DNA of 64,000 nt, from assembly GCF_041102775.1 (NCBI RefSeq), contig NZ_JBGCUO010000001.1, positions 1,364,001-1,428,000 on the forward strand. The letters run 5' to 3'. The translations under genes were made by a program, and so were the position numbers. Shown here one piece after another: positions 3,101 to 24,994 of this stretch. The notes beneath the pieces were generated by a model. That model did not search any database. It saw only the letters and a list, made by a program, of their open reading frames with translations, and was not told where the DNA came from. Position 1 is the first letter of the stretch, and every line of letters begins with the position of its first letter. The DNA is from Alcanivorax sp. REN37 (GTDB lineage: Bacteria; Pseudomonadota; Gammaproteobacteria; Pseudomonadales; Alcanivoracaceae).

Positions 3101-4261
<1,161 letters not shown>

Positions 4262-4331
4262 GTCATTTCGCCGGCGTGGCCGGCGCAGGGCGGCGTGATG
4301 CCGCCACCGCCCAATTGGCAACGAGGTCAAC

Positions 4332-6722
4332 ATGCTTTTCAACGAATCCTGGCTCCGCGAATGGGCCAACCCAGAGCTTGATACCGCGGCGCTGATGCAC
4401 CAGCTGACCATGGCTGGTCTGGAAGTGGACGGCGTAGCGCCGGCCTGTGCTCCGTTCAGCGGCGTGGTGGTGGCGGAAGTGCTCAGCACGGCGCCGCATC
4501 CCGATGCCGACAAACTGACGCTGTGCCAGGTGCATGACGGCAGCAGCACGGTGCCGGTAGTCTGCGGTGCGCCGAACGTGCGCGCCGGTCTGCGTGTGGC
4601 GTTCGCCCGTGTGGGGGCGGTGCTGCCGGGCGACTTCCGTATCAAGCCGGCCAAGCTACGCGGCCAGCCGTCGGAAGGCATGCTGTGCGGTGCCAGCGAG
4701 CTGGGTTTGGAAGATAAAATTGACGGTCTGCTGGAGTTGCCGGCGGACGCGCCACTGGGCGTCGACGTACGGGAATACCTGCAACTGGATGACGCCGTCA
4801 TCGAAGTGGATCTGACACCGAACCGCGCTGACTGCTTGAGCCTGCGTGGCTTGGCCCGTGAGGTCGGCGTGCTCAACCGAGTGCCGGTCACCGAGCCGCG
4901 CATCGATGCGGTCACGGCGAGCCACGATCAGAGCTTCCCGGTAGCGGTGAGTGCGCCTGAAGATTGCCCGCGCTACCTCGGCCGCGTGGTGCGCGGTGTG
5001 AACCTGTCTGCACCGACGCCGCTGTGGATGGTCGAGCGTCTGCGGCGCGCCGGTATCCGCAGCATCGACGCGGTGGTGGACGTGACCAACTATGTGCTGC
5101 TGGAACTGGGGCAGCCGATGCACGCCTTCGATCTGGCACGGTTGCAGCAGGGCATTGAAGTCCGCAAAGCACGCAGCGGTGAAAAGCTGGAGCTGCTCGA
5201 TGGCCAGTCGGTCGCCTTGCGCGACGATACGCTGGTGATTGCCGATGCCCAAGGCCCGCTGGCGATGGCGGGCGTCATGGGCGGTAAAGCATCGGCAGTC
5301 ACCGCCGACACCACCGACCTGATGCTGGAAAGCGCCTTTTTTGCGCCGCTCTCGGTGGCCGGCAAAGCGCGTAGCTATGGTCTGCACACGGATTCGTCCC
5401 ACCGCTTCGAACGCGGCGTTGATCCGCAGTTGCAGCGGCTGGCGATGGAGCGTGCCACGGCACTGATTTTGTCTATCAGTGGCGGCGAAGCCGGTCCGAT
5501 TGTGGAAGTGGTGAGCGAGGCACATCTGCCGATTGCCACCCCGATTGCGCTCAGCGCCGCCAAGGTTAACCAGGTGCTAGGGCTGGATATCGCCGATGCC
5601 GACATTGAGGACATGCTGCAGCGGCTCGGCATGACGCTGGCGCCGCAGCAGCCCGGCCAGTGGTTGGTCACGGCGCCGAGCTGGCGTTTTGACATGGCGA
5701 TCGAGGCCGACTTGATTGAGGACGTGGCACGAGTCTATGGCTATGACCTGCTGCCGTCCTGGTTGCCGGCGGTGCGCAGCAGTGCCGACACCGCTCCGGA
5801 AAACCGTATTCCCGGCCGGCAGGTGGCGAATCTACTGGTGGACCGGGGTTATCTGGAGGCTATTACTTACAGCTTCGTCGATCCCGCCATGCAGCACGCC
5901 CTGGCGCCGGACGTTACGCCGTTGGCGCTGGCCAATCCGATTTCCAGCGAACTTGGAGTGATGCGCACCACGCTGTGGGCCGGTCTGTTGACGGCGGCTC
6001 AGCGTAACCTCAACCGCCAAATCACCCGGCTGCGCCTGTTCGAGCAGGGACTGCGCTTTGTGCCGCAGGGCGATCAGCTTGAGCAGCTGCCGATGGTGGC
6101 CGGCCTGATTTACGGCTCCGCCCGGCCGCAGCATTTCGATGATGCCGCCCGCAAAGTCGACTTCTTCGATCTCAAAGGTGATGTGGAAGCATTGCTGGCT
6201 TTGGCGGGGCGCGCAGAGCCGGTGCGCTTCGTGCCGGATCAACATCCGGTGCTCCATCCGGGGCAGAGCGCGCGCGTGGTGCGTGACACCGTTGACGGTG
6301 AGGTCGAGCTGGGCTGGCTTGGCCGCATCCACCCGGCGGTGGCGGGCAAGCTGGATCTGTCCGATGAGCTATACCTGTTCGAGCTGTGCGCCGACGCACT
6401 GGCACAGCGGCCGCTGCCCAGGTTCGCGCCGGTGTCCGATCAGCCGTCTGTGCGCCGCGACTTGGCCTTCGTCGTTGATCGCGCAGTACTGGCCGGTGAC
6501 GTGCTGACCGCAGTACGCCGCGCGGGCGGCGAACAACTGCGCGATGTGCGGCTGTTCGACGTCTACCAAGGCGAGCACATGGCGCCGGAGCAGAAGAGCC
6601 TAGCGCTGGGCTTGACGTTCCAAGATCGTTCGCGCACGCTTGGCGAGGCCGATATCAATGAGTTGGTAACGGCGGTAATTCAGCTTGTAAAACAAGAGTT
6701 TAACGCCTCTTTGAGGGAGTGA
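4332..6722 (+). CDS. pheT: Phenylalanyl-tRNA synthetase beta subunit
   Basis: Partner of PheS. The 796-residue length is normal. In order: an N-terminal tRNA-binding OB fold (residues about 40-150, with HPDADKLTLCQV and VVCGAPNV), the B3/4 editing domain, B5, the catalytic-like core, and a C-terminal anticodon-binding FDX-ACB domain containing QPSVRRDLAFVVD. It is co-transcribed with pheS after a 70-nt gap holding a GGCGGC/GCCGCC hairpin, and is followed 15 nt later by ihfA, the standard arrangement. Confidence 0.97.
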   Translation: MLFNESWLREWANPELDTAALMHQLTMAGLEVDGVAPACAPFSGVVVAEVLSTAPHPDADKLTLCQVHDGSSTVPVVCGAPNVRAGLRVAFARVGAVLPGDFRIKPAKLRGQPSEGMLCGASELGLEDKIDGLLELPADAPLGVDVREYLQLDDAVIEVDLTPNRADCLSLRGLAREVGVLNRVPVTEPRIDAVTASHDQSFPVAVSAPEDCPRYLGRVVRGVNLSAPTPLWMVERLRRAGIRSIDAVVDVTNYVLLELGQPMHAFDLARLQQGIEVRKARSGEKLELLDGQSVALRDDTLVIADAQGPLAMAGVMGGKASAVTADTTDLMLESAFFAPLSVAGKARSYGLHTDSSHRFERGVDPQLQRLAMERATALILSISGGEAGPIVEVVSEAHLPIATPIALSAAKVNQVLGLDIADADIEDMLQRLGMTLAPQQPGQWLVTAPSWRFDMAIEADLIEDVARVYGYDLLPSWLPAVRSSADTAPENRIPGRQVANLLVDRGYLEAITYSFVDPAMQHALAPDVTPLALANPISSELGVMRTTLWAGLLTAAQRNLNRQITRLRLFEQGLRFVPQGDQLEQLPMVAGLIYGSARPQHFDDAARKVDFFDLKGDVEALLALAGRAEPVRFVPDQHPVLHPGQSARVVRDTVDGEVELGWLGRIHPAVAGKLDLSDELYLFELCADALAQRPLPRFAPVSDQPSVRRDLAFVVDRAVLAGDVLTAVRRAGGEQLRDVRLFDVYQGEHMAPEQKSLALGLTFQDRSRTLGEADINELVTAVIQLVKQEFNASLRE

Positions 6723-15646: not shown

Positions 15647-18070
15647 TTACTCCAGTTCGCCCGGCGCGCATTCCTGCCATTGGCTAAGAATGCCTTTGCG
15701 GCCGCCGATCCAGTTCTCATAAATGAAGTGCACGTCCGGCAGTTCCTTGATGCGGAACGACAGGTGGTAGCCTTCGGCCATGTCGTCGGTGCGCAAGCAG
15801 GGCACCGCCGGCAGCCAGGTCTGGAACGACAGGCTGTCGCCTTGGCGGATCACGGTGCCTTCCTCAAGCCCTTCAAACCAGGGTGTCAGTGAGGCTAAGC
15901 CACCGTTGATGTGACGAGTTTCCACGTCAACGATGGTGTAGTCGCTGTCGAGAGCTTCCAGTGACCAAGCCAACTGCAACGGTTTAGTGACGGGGGCTGG
16001 GCGCCCAACAAAGTCGTAACCGTAAGGCGGCAGGTTCTCGTAGGGCAGCGGGTGCAGCAGTGCGTCGCCGTCGCCATCGAGGTTGCGCAGCAGCACACCG
16101 CGGGCATTGGCCATCGGTTCGATCTCTACCGTGAAATCATACGGCTTGGCATCGTCGATGCCGTCGCTGGCTTCGTAGCGGAACACATAGGTGCCGGGCT
16201 GAGTGAAGCCGTTGCCGCGCATGTTCGGGCAGGCATCTTGGGCGTAAGAGAGGCTGGTGTAATCGCCGCCTTCCGGCGCGCTCAACATTTGCTCGCGGGT
16301 TTCGAAGCTGTCACCGTCAAGATCCACTACCACCGGGCGGAACAGCAGCGACATGCAGGGCAACAGCTGCACAAACTTCTGGCCTGGAGCGAGACTACCC
16401 CAGTTGCGCTGCCAGCTCACATAGCGGATTTCTGGAGCACTGTTGCTGAGTTTAGCCATGCCGCCGACTTCGCGCGGAGTGATGCCTTCCAGACCGCGGT
16501 CATCCTTCACCTGCACCCGTACGCGGTACGGCCCGGGCACATCGGTAACCACGTGGGCGCGGCGGTATTCACGGCTTTCCGGCTCCAGCACTGGCACGAT
16601 CACGGCCTGACTGTTATCCGGTCGGTCCACCAGTTCCCAAGTGAAGGTGAGCGGATCCAAGTCCGGGTCCTTGCTGGTGGCCGTGAAGACCAGCGGGTTG
16701 CCGACCAACACGGAGCCGGAGGCCATGTCGATGCCGCCGGCATCCGGGCGCCGGTTCACGTTGCCCACCAGCGCGGTCATGGTGGCGTCGCGGGTGATGG
16801 TATGGGTACCGTCGGACAACGTCATGCGCACCTGATAGTCACCGACCTTGTCGAGCACTTGGATCTTACGGCCCAGCGGCTCCCAAGCGCCGATCGAATC
16901 CAGCGTGGCGTTGCTGCCGGCCGGCTTGCTAACCAGCTCGGCGTCGATAATTTCAATGGCATCGCCGTCCGGATCATAGCCCTCGAAGACGAAGTTGGCG
17001 CGCAGCCCCACTTCCTGTTGGTTGCTGACGCTGTTGGTGGGGAAGTAGGCCACCGTGATCAGGTCGCCCACCGGCGGCAGGTTGTCGGCGTCAGCCGGCT
17101 TTTGCACCGTCACCGTGACGGTCTGCTCTTCACTTTTCCAAGTGCCGTCGAACACCGAGAACACCAAGTAGTAGTTGCCCACGGCTTCCGGCGTGAAACG
17201 CAGCGTGTCGGTGTTGGTGCCCTGCAACTCAGGAATTGGTAAGTGCTTGGGGCTAGTCGCGGTGCTGGCCCAACGCCAGCGATATTCCAGCGGCTCCCCA
17301 TCCGGGTCATAGCTGCGGCTGCCGTCGAGCACCACTTCGCTGCCGCGAGTAATGGTGATGTCATCGGCTACGGCCACCGGCGGTGCGTTGCCGGAGGACA
17401 CCGTCACCCGCACTTCAACCGGCGCGCTTTCGGTGCCTTGGTAGCTGACCACTAGGCGCAGGTGGTAATCGCCTTCCAGGTCAAGATGCAATGTTGCCAG
17501 CGCCTGCTCGGCTTGGGTCAGGTAAGCACCGCTGCCTTCCGGCACTAGCCCCAATGACCATTTGTAATCCAGCGGGCCGGATTCGCCGGTCGGTGGCGTA
17601 CTGGCCGAGGCATCGAGCCCAAGGCTGTCGGTACCGAGCCGCACGCTGTAGTGGGTGGCGCTGCTGGCGGTGGGATAAGGACTGGTGGCATCCAGTGTGA
17701 TGCGGGTGGCGGTACTGCGAGCGCTGCCGTCATCCACTGTCAGACTGGCGACATAAGCACCGGGCAGGTCAGCCTTGAAGTTGGCGAGGGTGCCGTCGCT
17801 GTTATCCAGCTGTGCGTTGCTGTGGGTGGGTGCGGCGACCAAATTCCAGCTGTAGCTGAGCGTGGCATCCCGCGGGCTGCTGCTGTGACTGCCGTCCAGC
17901 TGCACCGTGACCGGGCCTTGGCCCAGCGAAAAGGTGGTGTCGGCTGGTGACAGCAGTGTTATTTCTGCCTTCGGCGGCGTCGGTGCAGAGCTGCTGCTAC
18001 TGCTGCTGCCGCAGGCGGTCACCATCAGGCTGAGCCCGAGGGTGCCGATCAGGGGGAGGAAACGCGTCAT
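15647..18070 (-). CDS. PKD-repeat lipoprotein, last gene of a FecIR/TonB-receptor operon
   Basis: 807 residues. The signal peptide ends in a lipobox (VTAC, Cys20) followed by seven serines, so it is predicted to be lipidated and sent to the envelope. The body consists of successive PKD/Ig-like beta-sandwich units. Their recurring signs are DGSxSxxPxG..LxYxW near the start of each unit and GxYxxxLxVxDG near the end (around residues 60-120, 150-225, 235-325, 345-435, 445-540, 560-660). It starts 32 nt after the TonB receptor stop, with GGAGAACC ahead of the ATG. The context suggests surface capture of the receptor's ligand or receptor support; the function is inferred. Confidence 0.75.
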   Translation of the reverse strand: MTRFLPLIGTLGLSLMVTACGSSSSSSSAPTPPKAEITLLSPADTTFSLGQGPVTVQLDGSHSSSPRDATLSYSWNLVAAPTHSNAQLDNSDGTLANFKADLPGAYVASLTVDDGSARSTATRITLDATSPYPTASSATHYSVRLGTDSLGLDASASTPPTGESGPLDYKWSLGLVPEGSGAYLTQAEQALATLHLDLEGDYHLRLVVSYQGTESAPVEVRVTVSSGNAPPVAVADDITITRGSEVVLDGSRSYDPDGEPLEYRWRWASTATSPKHLPIPELQGTNTDTLRFTPEAVGNYYLVFSVFDGTWKSEEQTVTVTVQKPADADNLPPVGDLITVAYFPTNSVSNQQEVGLRANFVFEGYDPDGDAIEIIDAELVSKPAGSNATLDSIGAWEPLGRKIQVLDKVGDYQVRMTLSDGTHTITRDATMTALVGNVNRRPDAGGIDMASGSVLVGNPLVFTATSKDPDLDPLTFTWELVDRPDNSQAVIVPVLEPESREYRRAHVVTDVPGPYRVRVQVKDDRGLEGITPREVGGMAKLSNSAPEIRYVSWQRNWGSLAPGQKFVQLLPCMSLLFRPVVVDLDGDSFETREQMLSAPEGGDYTSLSYAQDACPNMRGNGFTQPGTYVFRYEASDGIDDAKPYDFTVEIEPMANARGVLLRNLDGDGDALLHPLPYENLPPYGYDFVGRPAPVTKPLQLAWSLEALDSDYTIVDVETRHINGGLASLTPWFEGLEEGTVIRQGDSLSFQTWLPAVPCLRTDDMAEGYHLSFRIKELPDVHFIYENWIGGRKGILSQWQECAPGELE

Positions 18071-18101
18071 TAAGGTTCTCCGTATCAGGAACAGGCCGAA
18101 A

Positions 18102-20786
18102 TCAGAATTGCAGGGTTGCGCTGAAGCGCGCGGTGCGGCCGGGAGCCGGCACCACGCCTAGGCTCAGGGCGTCGAGGTAGTAGCGGTCGGTGACGTTATC
18201 CACGGTCAGGTCGAGAGCGATGGTGTCGTTGACTTGGTAGCGCGCGAACAGGTCGTACACTTGGTAGCGATGCCACAGCACCGGCGGGTTGAAACCGACC
18301 GGTGCGTTGTAACGCGGGATTGGCGTGCGTAAGCCCATAAAGGTGCCGCGGGCGCCAAGCTCCAATCGTTGCTGCAGCAGCCGCACACCGAGCGTGGCGC
18401 TGGCATGCCACTTGGGCGGAATCATGTTGTTGACGTAACTCTGCGGCAGGCCCCAATCGGTGCAGTGGTAGCGCACGAAGCTGCCGGTGTTGCACACCTC
18501 GATGTGCTGGTAGCGAGTGCCGCCGAGCTCGGTGAACCAGCGACCGGCGTCATATTCCAGATTCAGTTCCCAACCTCGGAAATCAGCGCTGTCGATATTG
18601 CGCATGCGGAAGAAGTCGGTGCCTTTGTCCACTTCCCAAGCGTTGGGCTGGGTGCGGGTCAGGTAGTCCTTGGTGTGGTTGCGGAAATAGGCGAGTTTCA
18701 CCCGCAGTTGGTCGCCGTCGGTGAGCAGGTCACGGCGTAGATAGCTGGTGCCGAACTCGCGGTTGATGGCGTGTTCTGGTCGCAGTGGGATATCCAGCAC
18801 CGGGCTGACGGACCAACCGGAGGTGCTCTCGAACAGGCTCGGCATGCGCAGCCCTTCGGCATAGCGGGCATAGAATTGCAAGCCGTCCAACGGCTCCCAG
18901 GTCAGCGCGGCGATCGGCGCGCTGCCAGAGTGACGGTTGCGGTAATACACTGGCAGGCAGCCGCCGTCGCCGTCGGGTCGGCAGGCGGGATCGTAAGGCA
19001 GCAGCGTCAGCGCATTGTTGTCATGGGATTTGAAACGGGTGAAACGCGTGCCGGCTTCCAGCGTCCAGGCCGGCCAGGGCTGCCAGCGCAGCGCAGTGAA
19101 GGCACTGAACTCGTCGCGCTTGCCGCTGCGGGCGCCGGCGTAAAAGCCCTGTGGATCCGGGGTGTCGGTGGTCATGCGCTCCCATTGCATCGCCACGCCG
19201 TAGTCCAGTCGCAGTTCACCGAACGGATAAAAATGCATGGTGTTGGACAGGTCAGTGCCGTAGCGCTGGTAATCGTCCTTGCGGAAGGTGTTGCTGGCGA
19301 GGTCCACCGAGCCGGCGGCGGGGGTGTTGAGGCGCGATACGGCATCGGTTTGCCAGACGTTGAAATCCAGGTCGATCAGATCTTGGCCGGCGGGATTCCA
19401 GTTGTAGCGGCTGGTGTAGGTCTGGTTCAGTACCTCACTGCCTAACCACTGACGCGCTTGTCCGAACAGCCGGATTTGCGACGGCATCATTTCGCCGAAC
19501 TCGCTGTCGTAGCGGATATAGCTCAGTTCCAAGCCCTGATCCTGCGGCAGCATCAGCCGTGCTTTCACCAGCCAGGAGTCGCTGCTGTATTGGGTGTTGG
19601 GAATGCGCTCCCCGGCGCGGAACGGCGACACCCCTTCACGGCTCACTGCCACTTCACTGTAGTAATAAAGCCACTGCGGATCGCCTACCACCATATAAGG
19701 TGTCGGCCCGTGCCGGCCGGCGTAATAGTTGCCTTGGTCGCGCTGGGCGTAGGCCACCAGCAGGTCGCCCCAACTGAATCGGTGGGCGCCGGCGAGGCTG
19801 GCGGCATGGCCGCGCAGGTCCAGCAGCCCCGGACGGTCCATACCAGCGTCTGGTGCGAAGCGTTCTGGCATGGTCAGGGCGGGAGTGCAGTCGCTGGCAA
19901 AGCGGCAGTCGGTGCGGTAGCTGTTGCGCGGGCTGTAGTAGCCGGCGAAGGTGCCTGGGGTCGGAGCAGAGGAATTGTTGCCGATCAGTGTGCCGCGCAG
20001 TCGTAAACCGCTGTCTTTGCCGGGCGCAATCACGTCATTGGCGGTTAGCGTGCTGACGCTGACCACGCCGCCGGTGGCGCCGGTGCCTTGGGCAGTGAGC
20101 ACCGGCCCCTTGTCGATGCGCACACTGCCGACGAGGTCAGGATCGATGTAGCTGCGGCTGGACACACCGGCGTAGCCCCGGTAGACGGTGGTTTCTTGGC
20201 GGCTACCGTCGATCAGAACGGGCACTCGACCTTGGCCCTGCATGCCGCGAATGTTTACATCCAAACCGCCGCTGTTGCGGTTCTCGCCCACCAGTACACC
20301 GGGTGTGCCTTGGAACATATCGCCCACCGACGTGCCGCGGAAACGCTCGATATGACGCTGGTTCAGCACATTCACCGAGCCGGCGCTGCGGTACGCCTCA
20401 TCGGCTAGGTCATCGCGGATTTCTACTTTCACTGCCCCCAGTTGCCGAGTCTCGCGGTCCGTCAGTGGCAGTAGGCTGCTGAGCGTGAAGGTGCCGGTGC
20501 GGGTCTGGCGCCAAGACAAGCCGTGTCCAGATAGTAGTTGGTCGAAACCTTGGCTGGTGGTGAAGCGACCGCGTAGACCGGAGCTGTGCTTGCCATGGGT
20601 CAGTTCGGCATCGAACGACAGCAGGATGCCAGCGTCGGCGGCGAACAGACTTAGGGTGGTGCCGAGCGGTCCGCCGGGAATGTCGAACTGGCGGGCGCTG
20701 TTGGCCCAAGCCGGGTTGGCCGGCGGTAGTGTGGCAAGAAACAGCAGGGCGGCAGCCAATAACCGCCGTGTGATCAGCGTCACCAT
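18102..20786 (-). CDS. TonB-dependent transducing receptor with STN domain
   Basis: An outer-membrane receptor of 894 residues. In order: a signal peptide ending PANPAWA, an STN signalling domain (about 28-80: FDIPGGPLGTTLSLFAADAGI), a plug (about 110-240, with NIRGMQGQGRVPVLIDGSRQ) and a 22-strand barrel ending in ..FSATLQF with terminal Phe. Late-barrel segments YARYAEGLRMPSLFE and FRNHTKDYLTR resemble the hemoglobin/heme receptor family, so heme or a hemophore is a reasonable ligand guess. The STN domain and upstream sigma/anti-sigma pair indicate ligand-induced cell-surface signalling. The start at 20786 (MVTLITRRLL) is chosen because GAGGA lies 10 nt upstream; a TTG at 20846 is less likely. 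Confidence 0.9.
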   Translation of the reverse strand: MVTLITRRLLAAALLFLATLPPANPAWANSARQFDIPGGPLGTTLSLFAADAGILLSFDAELTHGKHSSGLRGRFTTSQGFDQLLSGHGLSWRQTRTGTFTLSSLLPLTDRETRQLGAVKVEIRDDLADEAYRSAGSVNVLNQRHIERFRGTSVGDMFQGTPGVLVGENRNSGGLDVNIRGMQGQGRVPVLIDGSRQETTVYRGYAGVSSRSYIDPDLVGSVRIDKGPVLTAQGTGATGGVVSVSTLTANDVIAPGKDSGLRLRGTLIGNNSSAPTPGTFAGYYSPRNSYRTDCRFASDCTPALTMPERFAPDAGMDRPGLLDLRGHAASLAGAHRFSWGDLLVAYAQRDQGNYYAGRHGPTPYMVVGDPQWLYYYSEVAVSREGVSPFRAGERIPNTQYSSDSWLVKARLMLPQDQGLELSYIRYDSEFGEMMPSQIRLFGQARQWLGSEVLNQTYTSRYNWNPAGQDLIDLDFNVWQTDAVSRLNTPAAGSVDLASNTFRKDDYQRYGTDLSNTMHFYPFGELRLDYGVAMQWERMTTDTPDPQGFYAGARSGKRDEFSAFTALRWQPWPAWTLEAGTRFTRFKSHDNNALTLLPYDPACRPDGDGGCLPVYYRNRHSGSAPIAALTWEPLDGLQFYARYAEGLRMPSLFESTSGWSVSPVLDIPLRPEHAINREFGTSYLRRDLLTDGDQLRVKLAYFRNHTKDYLTRTQPNAWEVDKGTDFFRMRNIDSADFRGWELNLEYDAGRWFTELGGTRYQHIEVCNTGSFVRYHCTDWGLPQSYVNNMIPPKWHASATLGVRLLQQRLELGARGTFMGLRTPIPRYNAPVGFNPPVLWHRYQVYDLFARYQVNDTIALDLTVDNVTDRYYLDALSLGVVPAPGRTARFSATLQF

Positions 20787-20855
20787 CAGGGATGCATCCT
20801 CAGAAAAGGCAGAGTGTCTGCATGAGGGGTCGGACGAGAACCGCAAAAGTACAAT

Positions 20856-20888
20856 TGAAAATCATTCGCGTATGGGGAAAGTCGTCAA
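20856..20888 (-). promoter_or_regulatory. Candidate receptor promoter with Fur-like box
   Basis: TGAAAATCATTCGCG (20856-20870 as read on +) matches 11 of 15 positions of the TGATAATCATTATCA Fur core. On the minus strand TTGACG (20888-20883) followed 16 bases later by AATGAT gives a plausible promoter overlapped by the box. A FecI-type promoter could also lie here. Confidence 0.4.
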
Positions 20889-20930
20889 TGCAGTGCCGGT
20901 GCTTTGGCCGGGGGAGTGATCCAAGGAAGG

Positions 20931-20950
20931 CCGGCGCTCTAGTGCGCCGG
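20931..20950. repeat. GC hairpin between the fecR-like gene and the receptor gene
   Basis: CCGGCGC and GCGCCGG around a 6-nt loop, 6 nt after the anti-sigma stop on the minus strand, without a T-run. It may trim or partly stop the sigma/anti-sigma transcript. Confidence 0.5.
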
Positions 20951-20955
20951 AGACT

Positions 20956-21921
20956 TCAGCTGCGGGCGCGCACCCGCAACCAGTAGCGAGTGCGGCGTTC
21001 CAGCTGTACCGGGAACGATTGCTCCAGTGAGGTCAACGCTTGATCGATGTCGTGCAGCGGGAAAGCGCCAGACACACGGAACGCGGCCACGGCGGGGTCG
21101 CACAGCAGCCAGCCGGGGCGGTAACGGCCCAGCTCCGACAGCAGGTCATCAAGGCGCCAGTCAACAGCAATCAGCGTGCCGCGCGTCCAGGCGGCGGCCA
21201 ACTCATCCGTGGTTTGAGGCGTGCCGAGGTGGTGGGCACTGAATAGCACCTGCTGCCCGCGGTTCAAGATCAGCGGCGTTGAAGCGATCGCCGGCTGCAC
21301 CTGGACTGCGGATTCCAGCACTGTCACCCGCACTTGGTTGTGGTCTTGCTGACGCACCAAAAAGCGGGTGCCGAGTGCCTGCAGGCGTCCGGCCACGGTG
21401 TCGACCAGGAATGGCCGCTGCTGTGGGTCGGCCACGGTGCGGATATGGATCTCCCCGCGCCGCAGCGACAGTCGGCGCTCGGTGCCGTTGTAGTGCACGT
21501 CTACGGCACTGTCGGTGTTGAGCGTCAGTTGACTGCCGTCCGGCAGCAGTAGCTGGCGCTGTTCGCCCATGGCGGTGTGGTAGTCGCCGCGCCACAGCAA
21601 TTGCTCACGGGCACTCCAACCGAGCCCAGCTGTGACGGTCAGCAACGCCAGCGCCTTGAGTGCGCTGCGACGGTTGATCGCAGGCCGTTGCAATTGCGCG
21701 TGGCCGAGAGTGTTGCGCGCCAGCCGGGGAGGTAGTGCGCGAAACTGTTGCTGTAGTTGCTCGAGTGCTTGCCACGCTTGCTGGTGGTGGCTATCAGCGG
21801 CCAGCCATTGCTGCCAAGCCCGATGATCAGCATCGGTGGCATCGCCGGAGCAGAACAGAACATGCCAGTGGGCAGCGTCCGACAGTGCTTGGCGCGGGAG
21901 CACCGTGGTTTGGGCGCTCAT
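20956..21921 (-). CDS. FecR-family anti-sigma/sigma-regulator protein
   Basis: 321 residues. The N-terminal cytoplasmic part contains the AAHWHVLFCSGDATDADHRAWQQWL signature of FecR-type regulators (residues 16-40), followed by a single membrane segment (about 86-102, ALKALALLTVTAGLGW). The periplasmic FecR domain has GEQRQLLLPDGSQLTLNTDSAVDV and a C-terminal STN-like end that contacts the receptor. It overlaps the sigma-factor stop in ATGA. It would relay the receptor's signal to the sigma factor. Confidence 0.93.
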   Translation of the reverse strand: MSAQTTVLPRQALSDAAHWHVLFCSGDATDADHRAWQQWLAADSHHQQAWQALEQLQQQFRALPPRLARNTLGHAQLQRPAINRRSALKALALLTVTAGLGWSAREQLLWRGDYHTAMGEQRQLLLPDGSQLTLNTDSAVDVHYNGTERRLSLRRGEIHIRTVADPQQRPFLVDTVAGRLQALGTRFLVRQQDHNQVRVTVLESAVQVQPAIASTPLILNRGQQVLFSAHHLGTPQTTDELAAAWTRGTLIAVDWRLDDLLSELGRYRPGWLLCDPAVAAFRVSGAFPLHDIDQALTSLEQSFPVQLERRTRYWLRVRARS

Positions 21922-22442
21922 TGGCCGGTCTCCAGTCGGTACAACAGGCAGTGTTCGGTGGCTTTAGCCATGTATTTCTTCACCGAACTGACTGATACAT
22001 CGAGCTGCTCGGCAATCTGTGCGTACGGGGTGCCGTCCAGCTGGCTCATCAGGAAGGCTTGGCGCACTTTGGTGCCGAGGCCGTGCAGCATGGCGTCTAC
22101 CTCGCGCAGCGACTCCAGCAAGATCGACAGTGTTTCCGGAGACAAGGCTTCCGGTTCTGGCTCCAGCGCCAGCGCGTCCAGCCAAGCCTGTTCCAGAGTC
22201 TGACGACGGAAGTGATCAATCATTACCCGCTTGGCAACGGTGGCCAGATAATGGCGCGGCTCACGCAGGACCGGCATGCCACTGTCTTCGCTGCGGCGCA
22301 GGATGCGTAGGAACGTATCCTGCGCCAGATCCGGAGCATCGGCCTCGCGTTGTAAACGCCGGCGCAGCCAGCCCACCAACCATCCATGGTGTGAGACATA
22401 AAGGGACTCGAAATCGGGTGAGGATGGAGAGTGGTCGGACAC
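21918..22442 (-). CDS. FecI-type ECF sigma factor, GTG start
   Basis: 174 residues. Region 2 has FESLYVSHHGWLVGWLRRRL and DAPDLAQDTFLRIL. Region 4 has the helix-turn-helix PYAQIAEQLDVSVSSVKKYMAKA. The sequence aligns with E. coli FecI from its residue 1 when the GTG at 22442 is used. A TTG at 22475 would place the start inside the promoter and Fur box. It is the first gene of sigma, anti-sigma, TonB receptor and PKD lipoprotein, and is expected to direct RNA polymerase to the receptor promoter upon ligand binding. Confidence 0.93.
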   Translation of the reverse strand: MSDHSPSSPDFESLYVSHHGWLVGWLRRRLQREADAPDLAQDTFLRILRRSEDSGMPVLREPRHYLATVAKRVMIDHFRRQTLEQAWLDALALEPEPEALSPETLSILLESLREVDAMLHGLGTKVRQAFLMSQLDGTPYAQIAEQLDVSVSSVKKYMAKATEHCLLYRLETGQ

Positions 22443-22459
22443 AGTCTCAAGCCATGAAA

Positions 22460-22504
22460 TGAGAATAATTATCAATTATAGTTATCTCGTTTCGGTAACT
22501 TCAA
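22460..22504 (-). promoter_or_regulatory. Promoter of the sigma-factor operon overlapped by a Fur box
   Basis: On the minus strand TTGAAG (22504-22499), an 18-base spacer and a perfect TATAAT (22480-22475). The downstream sequence TGAGAATAATTATCA (22460-22474 as read on +) matches 13 of 15 positions of the Fur core TGATAATCATTATCA and abuts the -10 element. Iron-bound Fur would block initiation, which supports an iron- or heme-related system. Confidence 0.75.
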
Positions 22505-22626
22505 GCGCAATCCTGATTGGAGCTGGAGGCTATAGGGGGCGCCTGTGTCGCAACCACGTGGGCGAGGGTGACGGGGGAGGGCACATCCTACTCACGGTTT
22601 GGTCAAAAAAGAACCAAGCAGCGGGG

Positions 22627-22927
22627 GAGTCCACAGTGATGATGGTTCCACGGATTTGGTCATTGGTTATTCACAAAGTTGTCCACAGATTCTGTGGACA
22701 ACAGTGGAAGATTTCGTACCGGAAAATAAGTTTTTCACAGTGCTGGAAGCAGACGCTTGGGATAGCCGGTTAATGACTAAAGCTGCCTACCTGCTCAAAG
22801 ATAGATAGATAAGTAGCTGAAATTGTTGATTAAATAATTAATGGGTACATTGGTATCACTGCGGGGAATTTGGTGACACTAAGGTTACGGTCAGCTTGTT
22901 CAGAATGATTCCACAGAATTATCCACA
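22627..22927. other. Cluster of DnaA-box-like sequences with IHF-like site, gene-free
   Basis: The gap 22505-23029 has no convincing gene. It holds TTATTCACA (22667-22675), TTGTCCACA (22679-22687), its inverted copy TGTGGACAA (22693-22701) and a perfect TTATCCACA (22919-22927). Weaker copies are GAGTCCACA (22627), TTTTTCACA (22731) and GATTCCACA (22907). The middle pair forms a perfect 12+1+12 palindrome (22678-22702). An AT-rich stretch (22800-22845, with GATA repeats) contains GAAATTGTTGATT (22819-22831), one mismatch from the IHF consensus. This resembles a DnaA-binding locus such as datA/DARS or an origin. No dnaA, dnaN or mnmG gene is nearby. Confidence 0.6.
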
Positions 22928-22983
22928 GGGTGGCGAGGAATCCATCCAATTTCATCCCCAGCTTTGATGTCAAGCGGCCAGGC

Positions 22984-23017
22984 ACAAAAAAACCGGGCCT
23001 AGGCCCGGTTTTTTTGT
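22984..23017 (-). terminator. Bidirectional intrinsic terminator after the acyl-CoA synthetase gene
   Basis: A perfect 34-bp palindrome: A-run, CCGGGCC, TA, GGCCCGG and T-run on both strands. On the minus strand it lies 13 nt after the synthetase stop. Confidence 0.93.
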
Positions 23018-23029
23018 TGGCAACAGCAC

Positions 23030-24862
23030 TCAGAAGCGGTAGTCGCCACGCTCGACGGCGTCGAACATTTCGCGGCTCAGCAACTGGTAGCAGGTTTCAC
23101 CCGGCAGCAGGACGTAAACCGGATCGTCATGCAGGGTCGGATCGTACTTCTGCTCCTTCAGCTTGTTCTTTTGGTGCTTGAAGGTACCGGTGGTATCCAT
23201 CGCCTGCGTGGCGATGCGCAGGAAGCCCGGTACCGCGTAGTGCGGCAGCGCACCTTTCAGGTACTCGGTGATGGCATGCCAGTCGAGCTGCTGGTGATCG
23301 CCGTCAACGCGGATCTCAGCCATACCGATGCGACCGTTGGTGTTGGGGATCTCGACACCATAGACCACTGACTCGACCACGCCCGGCGCGGCATCCAGGA
23401 TCTGTTCTACTTCGGTGGTGGACACGTTCTCGCCTTTCCAGCGGAAGGTGTCGCCGAGGCGGTCCACGAACTGGGCGTGGCGGAAGCCGATATCGCGCAT
23501 CAAGTCGCCAGTGTTGAACCAGGAATCGCCCTTCTCAAACACATCGCGCAGAATGCTGCTCTCGGTCTTGCTCTTGTCGGTGTAACCGTCGAACGGCGTC
23601 TGGGCAGTGATCTGGCCGATCAGCAGACCCGGTTCGCCCTTGCCGGCACGCACCAAGAAACCGTCTTTGCCACGCACCGGCTCATCACGCTCTTTGTCGT
23701 ACTTGATGATCGAGTAGCTGATCGGGGAGAAGCCGACGGTGTTGTCGAAGTTAAAGATATTGGTGAAGGCGGCGTTGCCTTCTGAGGACGCGTAAAACTC
23801 CACCACCCGGTCGATACCGAAGCGGTTTTTGAATGCCTCCCAGATGCTCGGACGCAGGCCGTTGCCCAGCATCACGTGCACATTATTGTCGCGGTCGCTG
23901 GGGCTGGCCGGGACTTCGAACAGGTAGCGGCACAGCTCGCCGACATAGCCGAAGGCGGTGCAGTTGTACTTGCGAATGTCATCCCAGAAACGGCTGGCGG
24001 AGAACTTGCGTGCCAGCACCAAGCCGCCACCGCCGGCGATTACCGATGCCCAGCACACGACGATGCCGGTGGCATGGTAGAACGGCAGCGTGGCGTACAG
24101 GCGGTCGTGCTTCTTCAGGCGTACGGCAGCGTAACCGAAGGCGCCGTAAGCGCGCTCCCAACGGCCGTTAGTAAATACCACCGCTTTCGGCAGGCCGGTG
24201 GTGCCGGAGGTATAAATGTAGAACAGCGGGTCGTTGAGGAAGATGCGGCTGGCTTGCTCCGGGTTCTCCGAGGAGCAGTCGCGGATCACTTCAGCGGCGT
24301 TTTGGTAGCCCGCCGCTACGGTGGACGGGTCTTCCAGCGTGTTGGTGTCAGCCCAGCAGTAGAACCGCTCGCCGGCCAGCTCCAACTCGTCGCGCACTTC
24401 TTCGATTGCGTCGACCAGCTCAGCGCCGATGAAGGCGGCCTTCGGTTGTACCAAGTTGAAGCTGTGCACCAGCACCTTGCCGCGCAGGGAGGTGTTGATC
24501 AGCGCTGAGCAAACGCCGATCTTAGCGGCGCCGACCACGGTGGCCAGTAGTTCCGGGCGGTTTTCAATATTGACGGCGATGCTGTCGCCTTTCTTGAGAC
24601 CCATGGACAGCAGAAAGTCGGCAACGCGGTTGGACCAAGCGTTGAACTGACGGTAGGTCAGCTGCATGTCCTGGTACAGCACCGCCACCCCATTGGGATT
24701 CATCTCGGTGGCGCGCTGGATGCCCAGTGCCAACCCCAGCGGCTTGGTGGTGTCCGAGGTCTTGCTCATCTTGGAGCCCTTGATGAGACCGGGCAGATTG
24801 GCGACCACGGTTGGTACGCGCGCAAGCAGCTTGGGCAACGTAATAAGGTCGGCGTTGCTCAT
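23030..24862 (-). CDS. atuH: Very-long-chain/fatty acyl-CoA synthetase, AtuH-like
   Basis: 610 residues of the AMP-binding superfamily. The P-loop-like motif is YTSGTTGLPKAVVFTN (near residue 215), followed by YASSEG, WFNTGDL and the DRLGDTFRWKGENVSTTEVE signature of the FATP/FadD6 subgroup. It would activate a carboxylic acid to its CoA thioester. Start ATG at 24862 has GGAG upstream; a longer frame to 24988 has no SD. As the last gene after atuF it matches atuH in Pseudomonas, so citronellic/geranic acid activation is a likely role. The 132-nt gap to atuF allows its own promoter. Confidence 0.8.
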   Translation of the reverse strand: MSNADLITLPKLLARVPTVVANLPGLIKGSKMSKTSDTTKPLGLALGIQRATEMNPNGVAVLYQDMQLTYRQFNAWSNRVADFLLSMGLKKGDSIAVNIENRPELLATVVGAAKIGVCSALINTSLRGKVLVHSFNLVQPKAAFIGAELVDAIEEVRDELELAGERFYCWADTNTLEDPSTVAAGYQNAAEVIRDCSSENPEQASRIFLNDPLFYIYTSGTTGLPKAVVFTNGRWERAYGAFGYAAVRLKKHDRLYATLPFYHATGIVVCWASVIAGGGGLVLARKFSASRFWDDIRKYNCTAFGYVGELCRYLFEVPASPSDRDNNVHVMLGNGLRPSIWEAFKNRFGIDRVVEFYASSEGNAAFTNIFNFDNTVGFSPISYSIIKYDKERDEPVRGKDGFLVRAGKGEPGLLIGQITAQTPFDGYTDKSKTESSILRDVFEKGDSWFNTGDLMRDIGFRHAQFVDRLGDTFRWKGENVSTTEVEQILDAAPGVVESVVYGVEIPNTNGRIGMAEIRVDGDHQQLDWHAITEYLKGALPHYAVPGFLRIATQAMDTTGTFKHQKNKLKEQKYDPTLHDDPVYVLLPGETCYQLLSREMFDAVERGDYRF

Positions 24863-24994
24863 GGGATCTCCGTTATTGTGGGTCTGCAACAAAAACAGCC
24901 CGGAGCACGCTGAAACGGACTCCGAGCACCAGAAAAAACGCAACTGTAAAGGGACGCCAACCTTAACTTTTGATCTGTTGGCGGGCAAGTGAGT

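Follow-up and report, generated by a model that had tools for sequence, protein, structure and literature searches.

In Escherichia coli, the closest described systems are the DnaA-reactivating sequences (DARS), in which boxes I and II lie head-to-head, an arrangement that is essential for the release of ADP, to which box III also contributes, with IHF and Fis being further required at DARS2 (PMC10380432, PMC8682772, PMC5742627, PMC4245941). For full activity, E. coli DARS1 needs the flank beyond its last box (PMC4585315), which in our own reading is box III. Another DnaA locus, datA, has as its defining feature an IHF site placed amid the DnaA boxes, and lies near oriC (PMC10380432). Sequences like DARS1 and DARS2 are described in a 2023 review as conserved in many proteobacterial species (PMC10380432), and the DARS papers, in the parts consulted, deal with E. 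coli and with comparisons between it and closely related species. Judged by titles and the opening lines of abstracts, no literature on DARS or DnaA-reactivating sites in Pseudomonas was found.

The site described here, referred to as locus A, belongs to a member of the Alcanivoracaceae, a family known for oil degradation, namely Alcanivorax sp. REN37 (genome of 3,022,832 bases in 8 contigs), and is found in a 64-kb stretch of contig C1 (C1:1364001-1428000), the whole of which is called the window. Given that the boxes, the head-to-head pair and the 5-bp and 3-bp gaps are those of E. coli DARS1 and DARS2, and that they are conserved in relatives, we consider there to be a good chance that locus A is a DARS-type element which recharges ADP-DnaA, a function deduced from comparison, and it is probably a control site that helps to time chromosome replication rather than a second origin. 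The earlier note on this DNA had likened the site to datA, to DARS and to an origin; of these options, DARS gained support from the same boxes, spacing and conservation, the origin failed, and a datA-type role is less likely, as is a transcriptional one.

All four of the DnaA boxes that had been claimed for the site are present. Box III (TTATTCACA, 22667-22675, plus strand) is followed after 3 bp, in the same direction, by box II (TTGTCCACA, 22679-22687, plus strand), and box I (TTGTCCACA, 22693-22701, minus strand) stands 5 bp from box II and head-to-head with it. Boxes II and I, together with their spacer, form a 12+1+12 palindrome at 22678-22702, which the inverted-repeat search found to be exact, as claimed. 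Read from box I, the core consists of box I (plus), 5 bp, box II (minus), 3 bp and box III (minus), i.e., TTGTCCACA-5-TGTGGACAA-3-TGTGAATAA, which has no mismatches to the pattern used in the scans, TTNTNCACA-5-TGTGNANAA-3-TGTGNANAA, hereafter the 5/3 core.

A further DnaA box, TTTTTCACA, is located on the plus strand at 22731-22739, 29 bp from box I, and a tandem pair on the same strand (22907-22927), made up of a weak GATTCCACA (22907-22915) and, after a 3-bp gap, an exact TTATCCACA (22919-22927), resembles boxes III and II without box I. The GATA run noticed earlier is also in the sequence, at about 22800-22813. On the box III side, an alignment of six genus copies delimits a conserved flank (GTCAAAAAAG ... 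GGTTCCACGGAT, 22602-22661), which is a possible accessory part of the element.

The E. coli MG1655 cores follow the same plan, that of DARS1 (stretch L033, 1108-1142) being TTATCCACT-5-TGTGGATAA-3-TGTGTATTA and that of DARS2 (stretch L034, 1136-1170) being TTATTCACC-5-TGTGGATAG-3-TGTGAAGAA, with two mismatches each to the 5/3 pattern; no such core is present in the E. coli oriC stretch, even with 5 mismatches allowed. Of the hallmarks of a DARS, those of layout and position are found at locus A, that is, three boxes with I and II head-to-head and III in tandem with II, the 5-bp and 3-bp spacing of DARS1 and DARS2, and a non-coding position that is away from oriC and conserved in five of six congeners. 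As for an accessory region, the box III-side flank is kept in the six genus copies, and the IHF-like site is at chance level and found in none of five congeners. No E. coli genome was matched in a BLAST search with a 51-bp piece of the core, because little beyond the boxes and their spacing is shared with E. coli.

The site is intergenic, with an AMP-binding gene on one side (23030-24988, minus strand; FadD-type by the reading of its translation) and, on the other, a FecI-type sigma factor gene (21918-22475, minus strand), which adjoins fecR. A perfect 17+17 inverted repeat with a T run, detected at 22984-23017 by the inverted-repeat search, is likely to be the terminator of the fadD-type gene ending at 23030, and lies outside the element. 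The Rfam scan of the 64-kb window returned two tRNAs only, with no match at the site. In the window, a fecI-fecR-TonB receptor-PKD block (15647-22475) separates the phasin gene from the element; as this block has no match in the 14-kb stretches of five congeners, it was probably gained by insertion, or lost in the congeners.

The comparison of box spacing among relatives, which the earlier note had proposed, bears the claim out, with the core of locus A being kept in five of six congeners. When 22640-22960 was used as a DNA query, 15 of 37 genomes were hit, these five congeners included; in G004, the remaining congener (92% complete, in 200 contigs), this search found nothing, and the match in G007, among those of the family, corresponds to another part of the query. 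Mean identity to the five congeners reaches 0.95 at 22682-22701, followed by 0.65 (22662-22681), 0.77 (22642-22661), 0.56 (22622-22641) and 0.66 (22602-22621); to the left of 22602 it is 0.09-0.41 per 20 bp, against the 0.56-0.77 of the flank at 22602-22661, and to the right of the core it is 0.19-0.60, being highest at 22902-22941. The five congener copies have a weaker box III, which reads TTATCAACA, TTTTCAACA (in three) or TTACCAACA. The box at 22731 is present as TTNTNCACA in all six aligned genus copies, in which the position of the tandem pair at 22907-22927 is also kept. Between the core and these distant boxes, all five congener copies have a conserved inverted repeat TGTCAC...GTGACA, of which the window (22842-22900) has a degenerate form.

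In the five congeners, the core has fadD on one side and a phasin gene on the other, other genes having been inserted in the phasin-core gap in the window and in the core-fadD gap in G005. More distant relatives show the same setting in part, with fadD and phasin on the two sides of the core in G007 and G023, and phasin kept in G015 and G019. Two cores, 144-270 bp apart, occur in G023, G015 and G019.

A scan of the whole REN37 genome at up to 2 mismatches revealed one other 5/3 core, referred to as locus B (C1:2093804-2093838, 1 mismatch). A GntR-type regulator (named from its translation) was found in all 18 of the genomes searched among the 24 of the family, and in 11 of these 18 a 5/3 core with 1-3 mismatches starts 144-297 bp upstream of this gene, always in one orientation relative to it. 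The remaining seven have no core within 700 bp of the gene (9 or more mismatches), and three of them have one further upstream, at 0.75 kb (G023), 3.8 kb (G015) and 3.7 kb (G019). At least one 5/3 core was found in each of 14 family genomes scanned (14 of the 24, mostly those with earlier matches), the controls giving none.

All five congeners searched have a third core, C, at a distance of 27-34 kb from a dif-like site (L271 4135-4169; L272 4263-4297; L273 4801-4835; G001 C2:159852; G003 C34:163639); in the three that were inspected, it adjoins a gene read by eye as that of a ParA-type ATPase, and the window's genome has no such core at up to 2 mismatches. Core C in relatives is placed beside dif and a ParA-type gene, at about 99% of the arm. 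The REN37 genome also encodes a second DnaA-family protein of the size of Hda; such an Hda-like match was obtained in five of eight genomes searched, and not in G001, G002 or G019.

With respect to oriC, locus A stands at 0.84 and locus B at 0.69 of half the genome, on opposite sides. Given that dif was not found in this genome at up to 3 mismatches, these positions were worked out from contig C1 and from half the length of the genome, and they agree with those in the closed relative G006 (locus A at 0.895 and locus B at 0.695 of the arm). The corresponding E. coli values are 0.66 for DARS1 and about 0.41 for DARS2, on what we take to be the E. coli dif coordinate. The cores in G000, G006 and G019 all point the same way with respect to fork movement, the fork meeting box III before box I; this comparison, done by hand with contig position for G000, covers only about three independent loci and is not significant. 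The two E. coli DARS do not agree with each other in this respect.

The spacing of the core recurs across the class. When the gaps were left free (1 to 10 between boxes I and II, 0 to 9 between boxes II and III), a scan of 276 class genomes yielded 33 matches, spread over 30 genomes of which REN37 is not one, and 30 of the 33 had the 5/3 spacing; in the order, where box I was defined less strictly and 245 genomes were scanned, 37 matches were obtained from 35 genomes, 30 of these matches being 5/3, including the two loci of REN37. In a free-spacing scan of 259 genomes of the phylum, three of four matches within the class were 5/3, as were five of 13 outside it, where 5/3 is not dominant. The rule is strong in the class (30/33 and 30/37) and is not borne out outside it (5/13), and the genomes scanned are related, so that their matches are not independent.

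When the spacing was fixed at 5/3, with up to 2 mismatches, at least 125 of the 259 phylum genomes had a match, against a single match of the reversed control in all 259; by hand count, at least 26 of 29 genomes of the order matched, as did at least 48 of 65 from other orders of the class and at least 51 of 165 from outside it. In one family (f200), at least nine of 12 genomes carry core strings of both types, DARS1-like and DARS2-like, with a third core in two of the nine, and the other three genomes (1.0-1.2 Mb) have no core among the matches listed. A scan of named genomes provided at least 119 stretches, and the 80 listed include Nitrosomonas, Nitrotoga, Methylococcaceae, Pseudomonas, Halopseudomonas and Marinicella; in one record, from Nitrosomonas, about 4 kb of DNA contains three exact 5/3 cores (L046 3202, 5094, 7189). 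These 80 stretches, with 30 from the class scan and 30 from the order scan, make up a set of 140, all fetched by core patterns and including the REN37 site itself and one relative present twice. A loosely defined 5/3 core is held by 124 of the 140; in the 91 with a strict core, its midpoint falls outside open frames of at least 100 aa in 81.

In this set, PriA (Pfam PF17764 for the query) was found in 18 stretches (L182, L183, L180, L181, L175, L061, L170, L169, L161, L106, L085, L079, L174, L040, L113, L090, L048 and L076), with the core upstream of priA and in the same orientation relative to it in all 18, the distance from the end of the core to the estimated start of priA being 8-135 bp in 17 and 424 bp in one. 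E. coli DARS1 and DARS2, which lie upstream of uvrB and mutH, respectively, are also next to DNA-maintenance genes. The priA-linked cores argue against every 5/3 core being a stand-alone recharging site, and keep transcription control as a rival explanation.

At locus A, this rival would mean that the boxes provide a DnaA-responsive control of a neighbour, either the FecI-type gene starting near 22475 or another. It draws on the position of the core about 190 bp upstream of the FecI-type open frame, on the priA-linked cores of one orientation in other genomes, and on the placement of the two E. coli DARS themselves. The neighbours of locus A vary, however, and the element stays: no FecI match is present in the 14-kb stretches of five congeners, in which the core is flanked by fadD and phasin, and extra genes separate the core from fadD in G005. 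Given this, transcription control is an unlikely account of the site.

An explanation that we hold to be quite improbable is that of a datA-like or plain titration site, which would bind DnaA, or hydrolyse its ATP, and recharge nothing. The presence of six boxes in 260 bp, weak ones included, would fit this role, as would the rarity of exact boxes in this genome and the presence of an IHF-like sequence. On the other hand, the E. coli datA stretch is without a 5/3 core (one match at 5 mismatches in the 5 kb fetched, and none below), and E. coli datA lies close to oriC, at odds with the place of locus A far along its arm. The IHF-like site at 22819-22831, to which the earlier note had drawn attention, does fit the consensus with one mismatch, but sites as good were present in 301 of 1000 shuffles of 22681-22930, and it is absent from all five of the aligned congener copies. 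The argument from this site was rejected on these two grounds, and, judged on this sequence, locus A is without the IHF site among essential DnaA boxes that marks datA.

A secondary or cryptic replication origin is very improbable, even though the DnaA boxes adjoin an AT-rich segment. The oriC of this genome lies at C1:110-122 kb (about 117 kb), with dnaA (by Pfam match) and dnaN, recF, gyrB and rpmH (named from their translations), and is without a 5/3 core. As the earlier note had said, no dnaA, dnaN or rpmH is close to the site, these genes being about 1.27 Mb away, and a reading by eye of the open frames between 15 and 31 kb showed no replication gene. Its suggestion of a secondary origin-like element did not survive the GC-skew check, the skew being positive throughout the site with no change of sign; neither the switch in skew nor the dnaA/dnaN/rpmH or mnmG context of an oriC is found there. 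The origin was rejected given that oriC is elsewhere, that the skew does not switch, that oriC is without a 5/3 core, and that dnaA is present in only one of the 140 stretches fetched by core patterns.

Exact TTATCCACA boxes number 11 in the whole genome, against three for the reversed control, and eight of them are at C1:113-130 kb around oriC, the others being one at the site, one at C1:2093818 and one at C1:2213596. Three exact boxes stand about 13 kb from oriC (L014, about 3894-4345; C1:129893-130344), partly inside a gene judged by eye to be carboxylesterase-like and partly just upstream of it, and have no 5/3 core. At up to 5 mismatches, this core is absent from the oriC, 130-kb and 2.21-Mb stretches of the genome. 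In the window, 14 boxes were counted at up to 1 mismatch, the shuffle mean being 5.44 and the maximum of 100 shuffles 12. The single word TTRTCCACA occurs 22 times in the genome and 22 times in the reversed control, so that it is the arrangement, and not single one-mismatch boxes, that carries the signal. The 5/3 core occurs twice in the 3.02 Mb genome at up to 2 mismatches, against none for the reversed control. In simulation (200 sequences of 64 kb), it was absent when 3 mismatches were allowed, and allowing 4 or 5 raised the number of matches to two and 15, respectively. A chance cluster of boxes, for which the equal counts of TTRTCCACA might speak, has a negligible probability, being countered by the simulated windows and already refuted by the conservation of the core in relatives.

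The DARS reading has points against it as well, namely the weak box III in the congeners, the unmatched G004, the missing conserved IHF site, the far boxes on the box I side, the lack of dominance of 5/3 outside the class, and the priA-linked cores. If it holds, and if the site works as E. coli studies suggest, ADP-DnaA would bind boxes I, II and III, and the AAA+ domains of the DnaA bound at boxes I and II, which stand head-to-head, would touch, with ADP being lost. The empty DnaA would then depart and take up ATP, becoming able to start replication, and the extra boxes (22731 and 22907-22927) and the box III-side flank may tune this recharging. The site would in this manner raise ATP-DnaA ahead of the next initiation, opposing Hda-driven inactivation.

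A wider proposal, which we put forward as speculative and rather doubtful, is that the 5/3 core is a portable DnaA nucleotide-exchange module found across the class and not an enterobacterial speciality. In the Alcanivoracaceae, two to three late-replicating sites (B at about 69%, A at 84-90% and C at about 99% of the arm) might tie recharging to forks nearing the terminus, and elsewhere cores at priA might link the state of DnaA to helicase loading or replication restart. The present analysis places a DARS-type pair in the Alcanivoracaceae, with orthologous positions in relatives, and measures a spacing rule over 276 and 245 genomes. These sites are nearer the terminus than those of E. coli and, if the function holds, the timing of initiation by DnaA recharging becomes testable in lineages with other chromosome layouts.

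Among the known loci, the oriC of the same genome resembles locus A in containing exact TTATCCACA boxes, but differs from it in the absence of a 5/3 core and in its dnaA/rpmH gene context. E. coli datA is likewise a multi-box DnaA locus between genes, but it has a defining IHF site, which is unsupported at locus A, and differs in its core. E. coli DARS, for their part, differ in their gene neighbourhood, in the side of the distant boxes, in the IHF site and in their greater distance from the terminus. DARS2 (rppH-mutH, about 2969135-2969169) has the same core as locus A and, like it, has further boxes, including one exact TTATCCACA about 200 bp off, although this lies on the box III side in DARS2 and on the box I side at locus A; DARS2 uses IHF, whereas locus A has no conserved IHF site, and it lies at about 0.41 of its arm, against about 0.84 of half the genome for locus A. 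DARS1 (bioD-uvrB gap, NC_000913.3 about 813107-813141) has a different gene neighbourhood and no likeness outside the core by eye, and locus A differs from it further in the extra boxes on the box I side. Both DARS1 and locus A, however, are intergenic and distal to the origin, with three boxes at 5/3 gaps, boxes I and II head-to-head and boxes II and III in tandem, and, where DARS1 needs a flank past its last box, locus A has a conserved flank that also lies on the box III side.
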